A stretch of 14,008 bases of DNA from Fidelibacterota bacterium (lineage in GTDB: Bacteria > Fidelibacterota > BS150m-G59): NCBI GenBank assembly GCA_016784265.1, contig JADHUZ010000006.1, positions 1 to 14,008 of the forward strand. The letters are read 5' to 3'. Position 1 is the stretch's first letter. Each line of letters starts with the position of its first letter. The notes beneath the pieces were generated by a model. That model searched no databases. It worked only from the letters and a program-made list of their open reading frames with translations, and was not told the DNA's origin. The position numbers and the translations under genes were made by a program. Shown here in pieces: positions 2,390 through 7,462 of the stretch.

Positions 2390-4107
2390 AAACCGCTTTC
2401 GATTTTAACGACTTTGCCCGATTGAATATAGACATAAATTGATTTCGAAACGCTAAATGGATCAGGATAAAGCCATAAAAATGTTTCCTCGCCGGATGCT
2501 TTGCTGGAATATTTTGTGTGCGGTTTGCCCATAATCCTGAGCACATCCTGCATTGACATGCCAAGTTGGGCACTATTTTCTTCTTTTTTGTGTCTCGTGT
2601 AATATTTGTTTCCAACGATGCGTTCTTGCCTTTTGTCTTGAATCACGCCCTCCAAGATGTTTGCGCCTTTTTCCGCCAAATCACTTGCGCTGGATTTTGT
2701 TTCTGTAACATCTAACAGAGACTGTCGAGCGAAAGCATATTCATCTAATTGAACGGCGCGATAGGCATCTTTCAGAAATTCCACTGCAACTTGGTCACGA
2801 TATTCTTGCACTCTTTCATCAATTTTTGGATTAAATTGAATTGCTTGCTCAAACCACTCAAAAGCACGATTTACATTCTCTATCCGAAATTCACGCTCTC
2901 CGCGAATGAAATAGACTTCCGCCAATCCCAAACGAGACCGTTTTGCAATTTTTCCGCCTGATTTTATGGCTATGTTTAAATTGTGTTCGCTTTTTTTGAT
3001 TTGATTTTGCCCAAGCGCACTCATTCCGATTTCGTAAAAAGCGAGTCCCATCTGCTGTCTTCGGGCATCAATTTTTTTGATAAGTTGCAAATCATTAGTT
3101 CTCTCGCGAGCAAGATTGTAATTATTCAACGCAATCTCCAAATCCTTGTCATGAAAAGCATTTTCTGCTCGCGCCATGTATTGATGTGGAATCATTTTTT
3201 GCGCTGCTTTTTCCATCTCGGTTGCTCGATGAATTTTATTGTGTTTCGGATAACTTTTTGTAAACTCGTGAAACTGCTTTTCCGCTTTGATATAATCGCC
3301 TTTTAGGTAAGATTCGTTTGCGAAATCTCCAATTGTTTTTTCTCCGCCCAAAGCCAAATTCAGCGTGAGAAATAATCCGTGATTCGTGAGATTAAATCCA
3401 TTAATCGGCACGATTTTTTCCGGATCTTCTAAATCTGGAAAATTGGCGAGATGATAGCGATATTCAATTCCGAATCCTCTGCGAAACCGATTTCCTCCGA
3501 GAGATTTATAAAACATCATTCCGGTTCGGAAAAACCAAATCGGCGCTTCCGATGTGATATCTCGCTCCTTTGGCGGATTTTCGTAAATATAGATCCATCC
3601 GCGCCCATATCCAATTTCCCCAAAAAAATAGGAATTGTTTTTCCACTGAAACATCGCCGTTTCTGAAATGTGAACATCCGCATAACTCGGTTTGATTTCC
3701 GGTCTAACGGTCATTTCAGCCGGCGAAATCCAGTCGTCTGGCAAATCCAAACCAATTGGTGCTACGCTCACATTGATTCCAAAACCGGTTTGAAAATCAA
3801 TCATCGTTTGTTTGACGACGGGATAAGTCAGATTGAATTTCAAAATGTCCAGCGTGCCGTTGAGGAGAACTTTGGCGTGAGGTTCTTGCAAAAATGCCAA
3901 ATTTGCTTCGGTTGAATCCAAATCCAAATGCTCGCCAAGACCAAACATAGAACCGCCAACTCGAAATTCCAATAGTGTGCATTTAATTGGTGTGCGATAT
4001 TCCCAGCGATTGAAAAGCCACGAAAATCTATTTTTTTTCGGCGCTTTTTGCGAAAAAGAAACGCAAAGAATTAAAATCCAAATCAGCCAATGTTTCCTAA
4101 AATTCAC
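2386..4107 (-). CDS. Exported barrel-like/TPR protein with C-terminal BamE (SmpA/OmlA)-like domain
   Basis: A 573-residue envelope protein that I do not recognise as a named family. Residues 1-22 form a signal peptide (FRKHWLIWILILCVSFSQ); the LILC sequence is not a good lipobox. Residues about 35-255 are rich in Gly, aromatic residues and alternating hydrophobic strands (for example HGLFLTLNLALGG at 243-255), like an outer-membrane barrel. Residues about 260-500 are helical with TPR-like repeats (such as AFEWFEQAIQFNP at 415-427). Residues 513-573 match the SmpA/OmlA/BamE pattern: GMSMQDVLRIMGKP followed by a strand with W-L-Y-P and a final GKVVKIESG. The start is a GTG at 4107 overlapping the selD stop as GTGA. 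The frame stays open to 4479, but that part lies across selD and is not used. A role in outer-membrane assembly or in anchoring the division machinery is inference. Confidence 0.75.
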   Translation of the reverse strand: MNFRKHWLIWILILCVSFSQKAPKKNRFSWLFNRWEYRTPIKCTLLEFRVGGSMFGLGEHLDLDSTEANLAFLQEPHAKVLLNGTLDILKFNLTYPVVKQTMIDFQTGFGINVSVAPIGLDLPDDWISPAEMTVRPEIKPSYADVHISETAMFQWKNNSYFFGEIGYGRGWIYIYENPPKERDITSEAPIWFFRTGMMFYKSLGGNRFRRGFGIEYRYHLANFPDLEDPEKIVPINGFNLTNHGLFLTLNLALGGEKTIGDFANESYLKGDYIKAEKQFHEFTKSYPKHNKIHRATEMEKAAQKMIPHQYMARAENAFHDKDLEIALNNYNLARERTNDLQLIKKIDARRQQMGLAFYEIGMSALGQNQIKKSEHNLNIAIKSGGKIAKRSRLGLAEVYFIRGEREFRIENVNRAFEWFEQAIQFNPKIDERVQEYRDQVAVEFLKDAYRAVQLDEYAFARQSLLDVTETKSSASDLAEKGANILEGVIQDKRQERIVGNKYYTRHKKEENSAQLGMSMQDVLRIMGKPHTKYSSKASGEETFLWLYPDPFSVSKSIYVYIQSGKVVKIESGL

Positions 4108-5144
4108 TGTATGAAAATCCGTTTTTCTCGTTCTTTCGCGATGCGTCCGATTTCTTGCGCCGGCACGCTTGCTTGTTGTAATTTTGCTACTAATCTGGCT
4201 GATTGTTCTGCTGGCACACAAATCAACAATCCGCCGGAAGTTTGCGCATCGGCGATCATCAAGCAATCCAACTCGCTCAATTTTTCTGAAAAATGTGTGA
4301 TTGGTGCGACATGTGATAGATTCCTCCGACTCCCGCCCGGCATAATACCTTTTTCTGCCAACTTGCGAACATCGGGCAAAAACGTAATTTTTTGAAAAAC
4401 CAATTCCGCAGAAACATTGCTTGCTTCGAGCATCTCTTTCAAATGCCCCAAAAGCCCAAATCCTGTTACATCGCTGCATGCGTGGACTTCAAAATCTCGC
4501 ATAATTTCAGCCGCGGTTTTATTCAACATTGTCATCGTGTTGACGGCATTTTGGATCGTTTTTAGTTCGGCAACGCCTTTTTTAATCGCAGTTGCTATGA
4601 TTCCTGTGCCCAGCGGTTTTGTCAAAATGATTGCATCATTCGGCTTTGCGCCGGAATTTTTGATGATGTTTTTAGCGATTCCCGTTACAACCATGCCGTA
4701 TTTTGGTTCTTTGTCGTCAATGCTGTGTCCTCCGATAATCGCAATGCCGGCTTCTTTGGCTTTATCTTCGCCGCCCTGAAGAATTTTTCCGAGCATTTCC
4801 AGCGGCAATTCATCTTTTGGAAAGCCGACGATATTCAGTGCAAATAGCGGTTTTGCACCCATCGCATAAATATCCGAAAGCGCATTTGCCGCCGCAATCT
4901 GTCCAAAATGATATGGATCATCAACGATCGGCGTAAAAAAATCAACCGACTGAACAATGACATTTCCATCTTGTATGCGATAAACTGCGGCATCGTCTGC
5001 CTGCTCAAAACCGACAACCACGTTCGGATCGGACAGTGGATTCAGATACTGCAAAACAATCTCAAGGTCGCCCGGACCCAATTTGCATGCTCAGCCAGAG
5101 CCGTGCGAAAATTGGGTAAGTCTTTTTTTCAATTCTTTTTCCAC
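4104..5144 (-). CDS. selD: Selenophosphate synthetase containing selenocysteine (in-frame UGA)
   Basis: SelD makes selenophosphate from selenide and ATP, the selenium donor for Sec-tRNA and selenouridine. Reading from GTG at 5144, codon 18 is TGA (5091-5093) inside SHGSGUACKLGPGDL. This aligns with the E. coli HGAGCGCK active site, putting Sec at the catalytic Cys position and K21 at the essential Lys. After the TGA the frame is intact to 4104: DDAAVY (50-55), SVDFFTPIVDDP (66-77), GGHSIDD (138-144) and DVTGFGLLGH. Full length is 346 residues, as expected for the family (about 347). Calling from the TTG at 5081 would lose the active site. The RBS is weak; a TTG at 5132 preceded by GGAAAAAG is an alternative start. 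An in-frame TAA at 5154-5156 limits the 5' end. First gene of a four-gene overlapping operon. Confidence 0.93.
5050..5093 (-). promoter_or_regulatory. Bacterial SECIS-like hairpin following the selD UGA
   Basis: In the mRNA, the UGA (5093-5091) is followed 3 bases later by a two-part hairpin. The lower stem pairs UGCAAA (5087-5082) with UUUGCA (5055-5050), a perfect 6 bp. The upper stem pairs GGUC (5078-5075) with GACC (5069-5066), plus a G-U pair, closing a CGGGC loop (5074-5070). The loop begins 16 bases after the UGA and has a G in its first two positions, which fits the general rules for bacterial SECIS elements bound by SelB as I remember them. The fold is drawn by eye and the energy was not computed. 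Together with the conserved protein context it supports Sec insertion rather than termination. Confidence 0.65.
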
Positions 5145-5218
5145 AGCCGAAAATTACGGAAAAATGCGGTAAATTTCTCACGCAAAGTCGTTGGTGATTA
5201 TTCCTTTTTTTACAAAAC

Positions 5219-5235
5219 AGTTTACGTTGCAAACT
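5219..5235. promoter_or_regulatory. Imperfect palindrome in the divergent selD/acylase region
   Basis: AGTTTACGTTGCAAACT has arms AGTTT/AAACT plus matched inner C/G, giving a 17-base dyad. It lies between two divergent genes and overlaps the -35 candidate of the rightward gene, as an operator might. Chance occurrence in AT-rich DNA is quite possible. Confidence 0.25.
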
Positions 5236-5254
5236 ATATCATAAAGTCATAATT
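5227..5254 (+). promoter_or_regulatory. Possible promoter for the acylase gene
   Basis: TTGCAA (5227-5232) and CATAAT (5249-5254) are spaced by 16 bases and resemble sigma-70 type -35 and -10 boxes (4 of 6 and 5 of 6 matches). Transcription would begin near 5261, about 36 bases before the start codon. No equally good candidate was found for the leftward selD operon. Confidence 0.3.
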
Positions 5255-5296
5255 TATTCAAGGGGATTTCATCAATAAATCGGAGATAAGGGAAAA

Positions 5297-7462
5297 ATGA
5301 AAAATTCAACAAAACCTTTTGAAATTACTGCAATTTTTGATTCTATCACAATTCAGCGAAACAACGATGGTGTGCCGACAATTACCGCAAAAAACCAGCG
5401 AGATTTATGTTATGGAATCGGTTATGCGCATGCGACTGATCGACTGGTGCAGATGATGCTTGTCCGTGCAATCGTGCAGGGGAGAAGCTCGGAAAAATTT
5501 GCAGGAGATGACGAACTTATCGAAATTGACAAATTCATGCGATGGATTTTTTTAGAAAAAGATATTGAGCAAGAGATTGACAAATTAGAACCCGAAATAA
5601 AACAAGAACTCGATGCATACTGCGCAGGAATCAATTCCGTTATCGCGGAGAAAAAACGCTCGTTTGAGTTTCTTTTAACTGGATACAAACCAGAACCGTG
5701 GGGAATTAAAGATTCGATAGCAACCGCGAAAGTGATGGGTTTTGTCGGATTGGCGCAAACGCAAGTTGATATGCAAAAATTCTTAATTCAGATGATTCAG
5801 CAGGGCGCAAGCGAAGAAAAAATCAAAGCACTATTTCCATATTTGACAGAAAAAATTGATTCCGATTTAATCAAATCAATTCAGTTGGATATGAAAATTA
5901 TCCCGGATCAGATTTGGAATGGCGTTCTGCCGAATTTCAAAGCGAGCAATAATTGGGCTGTCAGCGGGGAAAAAACGAAATCCGGTCATCCAATGTTGGC
6001 GACGGATCCGCATTTGGAAGTAAATCGTCTGCCGGCAGTTTGGTATGAGATGGTTGGAAATGTGAACGGCGAAAAAATCATGGGCATCACGATGCCGGGT
6101 TTACCGATGACGATTATGGGCAGGACGAAGAATCTTGCTTGGGGCGGAACGTATGGATTCATGGACATGATTGATTATTTTATTGAGGATTGCGAAGATG
6201 AAAAATTTCTTTATGACGAAGAATGGAAATCATTTGAAAAACGTGAAGAAATTATCAAGCCCAAAAAGAAAGATCCAATCCATTTGACATTTTATGAAAA
6301 TCATCACGGAGTTTTAGAGGGGAATCCTGCGCAATCGGGAAAATATCTCGCTATGGCATACACAGGGCGTTCTGGTGCTGGCGCAGATGTATTCAACACG
6401 ACGATGAGAATTCACACCATTCGCACTGTGAAAGAAGCGCAACAGTTATTGCGCGGACTTGCGGCGCCGACATTCAACTGGGCACTTGCGGACAGAGAAG
6501 GGAATATCGGTTTCCAGATGAGCGGAAAAATGCCGAAACGAGCGGATGGATTCAGCGGATTATTGCCCATTCCCGGTTGGGATTCTGCAAATGATTGGCA
6601 AGGATTTGAAAATTCGGAACAGCACCCGAGTTGTTTGAATCCGGAATCGGGATTTTTTGCAACTGCGAACAATGATTTGAATAAATTTGGTGAAAATTCA
6701 CCGATCAACATCTGCATGGCACCGTATCGCGTTCAACGAATTATGGAAATTTTAGCGGAAAATCAGCCTGTGGATGCGGAAACTTTTCAGGCGATGCATT
6801 ATGATTTGTATTCCAAGCAGGCGGAGCGATTGATGCCGTTGTTTTTTCATTTGTTGCCAGATACGGAAAATGGAAAAATTTTGAAAGAATGGGATTTTGT
6901 GTATGATGAAAATTCCAAAGGCGCGATGCTGTTTGAGTCGGTTTATCGCAATTTGATTGAAATTGTGTTTGGGAAAAATGGCATCGGCGAGGAGGCAATG
7001 GTGCATCTTTTGGATGAAACTATTCTTTTTTCGATATATTTTGGCAATTTTGATGATGTGATTATGGATGAAAATTCGCCGTGGTTTGCAGAAACAAGCC
7101 GCTTGGAAATGCTGAAAAAAGCAATTGAAAAAGGCTTGGATGTCTCAATTTTGCCATACGGAGAAACCAGAAAATATGATATGAATAATATCTTTTTGGG
7201 CGGAAAATTTCCCGGATTTTTCGGTTTTGATCTGAAAAACAAAACGCTTCCCGGCTCCCGCGCGACAATTCCGCAGGGACAAATTTGCAGGTTCGGCGGG
7301 AGAATTTCTACATTTTCGCCGTCGTTTCGGATGATTGCTGAGATGCAAAAAGATGAAATTCTAACAAATCTCCCCGGTGGACCTTCTGGAAAACGGTTTT
7401 CAAAATGGTATAAATCCGATCTGAAAAATTGGGAAAATGGGCGCTACAAACTGGTGAAATAA
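5297..7462 (+). CDS. Penicillin acylase family (S45) Ntn amidohydrolase
   Basis: An Ntn hydrolase that hydrolyses an amide bond after self-cleavage into alpha and beta chains; the substrate (beta-lactam, acyl-homoserine lactone or other N-acyl compound) cannot be told from sequence. Visible features are the alpha-chain motif DGVPTITAKNQRDLCYGIGYAHATDRL (within 24-50), then the autoprocessing site at A216/S217 in ASNNWAVSG, where S217 would become the N-terminal nucleophile. The beta-chain motif SGHPMLATDPHL follows, then FNWALADREGNIG (393-405), whose N394 corresponds to the oxyanion Asn. Length (721) is normal. The N-terminus begins directly with the mature-type fold and has no signal peptide; an in-frame stop at 5276-5278 excludes a longer form. 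The ATG is preceded by AAGGG (5288-5292). It stands alone, divergent from selD. Confidence 0.9.
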   Translation: MKNSTKPFEITAIFDSITIQRNNDGVPTITAKNQRDLCYGIGYAHATDRLVQMMLVRAIVQGRSSEKFAGDDELIEIDKFMRWIFLEKDIEQEIDKLEPEIKQELDAYCAGINSVIAEKKRSFEFLLTGYKPEPWGIKDSIATAKVMGFVGLAQTQVDMQKFLIQMIQQGASEEKIKALFPYLTEKIDSDLIKSIQLDMKIIPDQIWNGVLPNFKASNNWAVSGEKTKSGHPMLATDPHLEVNRLPAVWYEMVGNVNGEKIMGITMPGLPMTIMGRTKNLAWGGTYGFMDMIDYFIEDCEDEKFLYDEEWKSFEKREEIIKPKKKDPIHLTFYENHHGVLEGNPAQSGKYLAMAYTGRSGAGADVFNTTMRIHTIRTVKEAQQLLRGLAAPTFNWALADREGNIGFQMSGKMPKRADGFSGLLPIPGWDSANDWQGFENSEQHPSCLNPESGFFATANNDLNKFGENSPINICMAPYRVQRIMEILAENQPVDAETFQAMHYDLYSKQAERLMPLFFHLLPDTENGKILKEWDFVYDENSKGAMLFESVYRNLIEIVFGKNGIGEEAMVHLLDETILFSIYFGNFDDVIMDENSPWFAETSRLEMLKKAIEKGLDVSILPYGETRKYDMNNIFLGGKFPGFFGFDLKNKTLPGSRATIPQGQICRFGGRISTFSPSFRMIAEMQKDEILTNLPGGPSGKRFSKWYKSDLKNWENGRYKLVK

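Follow-up and report, generated by a model that had tools for sequence, protein, structure and literature searches.

An in-frame UGA as the probable selenocysteine codon of selD in a Fidelibacterota genome

The selD locus and its in-frame UGA

The window (the whole stretch of 14,008 nucleotides that was analysed) carries on its minus strand a gene for selenide water dikinase (selenophosphate synthetase, SelD) that is interrupted near its 5' end by an in-frame TGA. The main features are as follows.

4104..5144, minus strand: selD, selenide water dikinase (selenophosphate synthetase), GTG start at 5144, 346 residues with selenocysteine (Sec) predicted at position 18
5091..5093, minus strand: in-frame TGA, the probable Sec codon at the catalytic position; faces Cys of SelD 3u0o, and is TGA in 66 of 79 relatives
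4104..4106, minus strand: TGA that is the true stop of selD, from the translation

The open reading frame listing under translation table 11 gives selD as 5081..4104 on the minus strand, with a TTG start and 325 aa, exactly as the preliminary description had stated for a reading by the standard code. If the TGA is instead read as Sec, the product begins VEKELKKRLTQFSHGSG-U-ACKLGPGDL and the full frame runs to 346 residues before the terminator, which is itself TGA. An in-frame stop lies a few codons upstream of GTG 5144, and TTG 5132, the sole other in-frame ATG, GTG or TTG between that stop and the internal UGA, is an alternative start. Against a cut-off of 125, the product scores 399.5 bits with the SelD profile TIGR00476 and covers positions 1-310 of its 311; in the profile search of the source genome, the SelD match contains a single TGA. 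This match and the translation bear out the earlier claim that read-through at 5091-5093 yields a SelD active site and a protein of 346 residues.

Alignment to a Cys-type SelD, a comparison that the preliminary description had proposed, places the UGA opposite the Cys of HGAGCGCK in structure 3u0o: residues 6-17 of the window SelD align with residues 5-16 of 3u0o, and U-A-C-K with C-G-C-K (the SelD motif being a catalytic Cys or Sec with Lys three residues on). This alignment of residues 6-17 and the nearly full match to TIGR00476 show that the reading frame 5' of the UGA is not a chance one. Among solved structures, the selenide, water dikinase 3u0o (Escherichia coli) is the best match (262.5 bits), followed by the SelD 2yye/2zod (Aquifex aeolicus; 238.9 bits). 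Both are homologous to the window SelD over most of its length; in the alignment, the catalytic residue of their deposited chains is Cys, whereas the window gene has the Sec codon.

No selenium gene adjoins selD within the window. Upstream of it, and diverging from it, is a gene with a below-cut-off match to the acylase PvdQ (68.7 vs 950 bits), and after it comes an ORF whose sole match is weak and below the cut-off; as listed, this ORF and the end of selD overlap. Scanning 5050-5350 for promoters and terminators returned one promoter-like site, against 0.9 expected, and no terminator.

The codon in relatives and across the phylum

A protein search of genome contigs, for which the window selD itself was the query (so that the set leans to its kin), yielded 91 confirmed stretches, and the analysis retained the best 80. 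The site is covered in 79 of these best 80 loci; in one (L024) it is not on the contig, and this locus was left out of the codon count. The catalytic codon is TGA in 66 of the 79 and Cys in the other 13 (11 TGC, 2 TGT), and nothing else was found at this position.

We also surveyed 149 genomes of the phylum, comprising that of the window and others labelled with the same phylum (a search by family returned the source genome alone). SelD was found over the cut-off in 107 of the 149. In 87 of these 107, a SelD copy has a single TGA within its match, and the remaining 20 have only copies lacking a TGA. Thirty phylum loci were fetched for a check of the codon (26 TGA, 4 TGT), all of which have it at the catalytic position; the place of the TGA within the match was thus confirmed in 26 of the 26 TGA loci checked. 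Starting at the codon, four of the 30 agree at all 63 bases with named Marinimicrobia/Neomarinimicrobiota records, and this fixes the identity of the phylum. In some phylum genomes two SelD matches exceed the cut-off: G103 has two TGA forms, and G126 and G060 each have one TGA-form SelD and one long frame without TGA.

SelA tracks SelD across this set. It was over its cut-off in 82 of the 87 genomes with TGA-SelD and in 18 of the 20 with only non-TGA SelD, that is, in 100/107 genomes with SelD vs 9/42 without SelD over the cut-off (Fisher p 4e-18, for genomes that are related and hence not independent). Incomplete assembly is a likely explanation for the nine genomes with SelA but no SelD over the cut-off (G050, G088, G094, G096, G097, G101, G106, G129 and G135). 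Partial SelD matches below the cut-off occur in two of them, G094 and G129.

A tree of 106 SelDs groups the window gene with 37 other Sec genes (support 92/73 for the group of 38); apart from L030 (TMED161, for which no phylum is given), all 37 carry the label of this phylum. Weak support at the neighbouring forks (92/26) leaves the position of the window gene only approximate. Five changes of the Sec/Cys label are needed on the tree, and at least four of them are forced by well-supported branches.

These distributions bear on the simplest objection to a Sec codon, namely that the Cys codon of an ordinary Cys-SelD has been turned into TGA by an error in sequencing or assembly, or by a mutation that disables the gene. 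TGA is a single base away from both TGC and TGT, and the source assembly is fragmented (118 contigs). However, 66 of 79 relatives share the TGA at this codon, which makes a sequencing error very unlikely, and a single TGA in the SelD match of 87 of 107 SelD-bearing phylum genomes points the same way. The remainder of selD is intact, and the UGA is followed by a structural signal that is largely missing from Cys genes (see below). We consider an error or disabling mutation very improbable.

Sec machinery of the source genome

The source genome is an incomplete metagenome-assembled genome of 964,451 bases in 118 contigs (65.1% complete). Even so, it contains the genes expected from the preliminary description, which had argued that selA, selB and selC must also be present and had named a lack of selB or tRNA-Sec as evidence against its reading. 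selA (510.9 bits) lies on contig C19 and adjoins selB (314.4 bits, above the cut-off). A C-terminal part of SelB that scores 27.2 bits alone is found on contig C1 and overlaps the C19 piece. Each of the two pieces (L001 2-1333 and L003 1486-2439) reaches the end of a contig, and their overlap spans about 136 residues with five differences (counted by eye), so the break in selB looks like one of assembly. The five differing residues suggest that the binned population contains varying strains. Contig C56 carries a third selB match, which at 82.3 bits is below the cut-off of 242.25. tRNA-Sec is on contig C32 (71.4 bits vs a gathering score of 47), and ARAGORN calls it tRNA-SeC with anticodon tca (UCA).

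The machinery also bears on two further readings of the locus. Translation could start at TTG 5081, the frame given by standard ORF calling, to produce a 325-residue SelD-like protein that lacks the active site and serves some other use. This is highly improbable: conservation with SelD extends to the residues 5' of the UGA, and the genome, which encodes SelA, contains only this one SelD above the cut-off (the sole second match, on contig C62, scores 32.8 vs 125 bits). Reassignment of UGA in the lineage, for instance to Trp or Gly, would likewise account for an in-frame TGA within a conserved gene, but we regard it as extremely improbable, given that selD itself terminates in TGA, that the site faces Cys in homologues, and that tRNA-Sec, SelA and SelB are all present.

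A search of five selenoprotein-type families found no second UGA gene in the 65% complete assembly. There was no match in it to the SelW-like PF10262, AhpD-like PF02627 or TusA/SirA-like PF01206 families, nor to the selenouridine synthase TIGR03167. A match to the formate-dehydrogenase-like TIGR01591 (564 bits, below the cut-off of 666.25) and a peroxiredoxin-like PF00578 domain were both found without an internal stop. At 65% completeness, and with so few as five families searched, the absence of other selenoproteins proves little. The pattern fits that of organisms lacking FdhA, since all such Sec-decoding organisms then known were noted to have Sec-SelD (PMC1794560).

RNA structure downstream of the UGA

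A published model of the bacterial SECIS has a stem of 4-16 bp and a loop of 3-9 nt with G in the first two loop positions, placed 16-37 nt from the UGA and with a minimum free energy of -7.5 or below (PMC13188914). We scanned the 60 bases after the codon for hairpins of this geometry, except that 5 bp were required, in 110 rows (the window gene, 79 relatives and 30 phylum loci). Removal of four duplicates left 89 Sec genes, including the window's, and 17 Cys genes. Expected counts came from 100 rounds of synonymous-codon shuffles, which preserve the protein.

At -5 kcal/mol or below, 79 of the 89 Sec genes have such a hairpin, against 16.6 expected and a maximum of 25 in the 100 rounds; at -7.5 kcal/mol the count is 59, against 8.5 expected. 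Four control stretches in the same 89 genes gave chance levels (3, 7, 5 and 4 vs 3.7, 9.1, 3.8 and 6.3). Among the 17 Cys genes, four have a hairpin at -5 (3.1 expected) and likewise four at -7.5, where the excess over the 1.5 expected is small; remnant SECIS elements have been described in some Cys genes (PMC1794560). Folding of the whole region gave a mean z of -2.18 in 16 genes of or near the phylum (window included), -1.54 in 51 other Sec genes and -0.27 in 13 Cys genes; for the phylum loci the means were -1.98 in 26 Sec genes (four of them identical to earlier rows) and -0.74 in four Cys genes. The hairpin excess over shuffles and the folding z scores agree: as a family, the Sec genes carry a selected RNA structure 3' of the UGA, one that is unexplained by the protein sequence. 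The synonymous-shuffle test is a simple means of separating a coding-region SECIS from protein constraint. The best hairpin most often has its loop at a spacing of 33 nt from the UGA (51 of 93 Sec rows, duplicates still in); L023 and L033 have theirs at 17 and L053 and L056 at 27.

Three hairpins can be drawn in the window gene itself.

5065..5079, minus strand: candidate SECIS core, a 5-bp hairpin GGGUC-CGGGC-GACCU with its loop beginning 16 nt after the UGA, -4.9 kcal/mol
5050..5087, minus strand: alternative, longer candidate fold with outer stem UGCAAA/UUUGCA, the minimum-energy fold of 50 bases from the UGA, -11.5 kcal/mol
5076..5117, minus strand: hairpin around the UGA (ACCCAAUUU/AAAUUGGGU) with the UGA in the upper stem, from folding; probably a chance structure

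The hairpin at 5079-5065 has SECIS geometry (5 bp, loop CGGGC, spacing 16), but its -4.9 kcal/mol alone falls short of the -7.5 bound and is reached by 8% of synonymous shuffles (p 0.08). When the 48 bases that follow the UGA are folded (-10.8), 12% of shuffles do as well (p 0.12). The window gene lacks the spacing-33 hairpin and belongs to the 10 Sec genes without a hairpin at -5 kcal/mol or below. Its own downstream element is therefore weak, and the Sec call does not rest on the candidate hairpin. An Rfam scan of the window gave no match at gathering thresholds.

The hairpin at 5117-5076 beats 97% of synonymous shuffles in the window (z -2.35). We rejected it as a recoding element, since the region from -24 to +24 shows, on average, no excess structure in either gene set: the mean z is -0.04 in the 16 genes of or near the phylum (window included), where the window is the only one at p <= 0.05, and 0.02 in 51 other Sec genes, 6 of which are at p <= 0.05. 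This hairpin is not common to the relatives and probably arose by chance.

Interpretation and relation to known SelD proteins

Our data indicate, almost certainly, that in this genome of Candidatus Neomarinimicrobiota (Marinimicrobia, SAR406, Fidelibacterota) the gene encodes a selenophosphate synthetase that stands alone and contains Sec, with UGA 18 decoded as Sec. In the organism, SelB would bind Sec-tRNA(UCA) together with a stem-loop just 3' of the UGA, for which the hairpin at 5079-5065 is a candidate, and Sec would be inserted at position 18; were decoding to fail, translation would end after 17 residues. By homology, the selenol of Sec18 is predicted to handle selenide in the ATP-dependent synthesis of selenophosphate, which SelA would then put to use in forming Sec-tRNA. 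Since SelA makes Sec-tRNA from the selenophosphate of SelD, SelD would support its own synthesis.

The preliminary description was right to call this a self-referential selenoprotein, yet that is the normal state of Sec-type SelD. The Sec form makes up 19% of SelDs in one reference set (PMC4561486), and it was tabulated in 383 organisms, second after formate dehydrogenase among bacterial selenoproteins (PMC5029168, Table 3). Being long known and the second most widespread bacterial selenoprotein, Sec-SelD makes the window selD an ordinary instance. A selenium-supplying enzyme that needs selenium is not new, and the arrangement is well known and usual in the phylum, so the novelty implied is low. 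The window SelD shares the enzyme family and the Sec position of bacterial Sec-SelDs (TIGR00476; see PMC4561486, PMC5029168 and PMC1794560), along with family-level structure 3' of the UGA and co-occurrence with SelA, SelB and tRNA-Sec, and differs only in its lineage and in its weaker, differently placed hairpin. The warning that automated annotation will miss selenoproteins is right only in part: in one evaluation on 20 test genomes, 195 of 298 selenoprotein genes received a correct annotation (PMC12013277).

The value of the call lies rather in a secure selenoprotein in a poorly sampled lineage. The accessible literature on Marinimicrobia, SAR406 and Neomarinimicrobiota selenoproteins (most subscription journals being outside its scope) yielded no report of Sec-SelD in the phylum, and three SAR406 single-cell genomes were listed with an 'orphan' SelD and no other selenium genes (PMC5029168, Table 1). 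Sec decoding with Sec-SelD is usual in this same phylum; we infer that the orphan entries may be due to incomplete genomes or to Cys-SelD fusions. It is also conceivable, but unlikely, that SelD is the sole or nearly sole selenoprotein of the lineage, that the Sec machinery is kept mainly for it, and that the position and strength of its SECIS would set a self-limiting, selenium-sensing level of SelD. The element varies among relatives (best loop 16-17, 27 or 33 nt from the UGA) and is weak in the window.

Fused Cys-SelDs of the phylum

The four fetched Cys-SelDs of the phylum (L098 334-2526, L110, L116 and L118, from genomes G045, G126, G072 and G080) form the C-terminal portion of longer frames, 736-748 codons in length, whose start resembles a NifS cysteine desulfurase. 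They share the SelD domain and the phylum with the window SelD, but are of Cys type with an N-terminal cysteine-desulfurase-like part, whereas the window SelD is standalone and has Sec. Two cases of NifS-SelD have been reported (PMC4561486). Pfam identified Aminotran_5 and AIRS domains in L098, the sole fused frame scanned. Across the phylum, 21 of the 23 over-cut-off SelD matches without TGA lie in open frames of 700-762 codons, and the rule in the phylum may be that standalone SelD has Sec and fused SelD has Cys.
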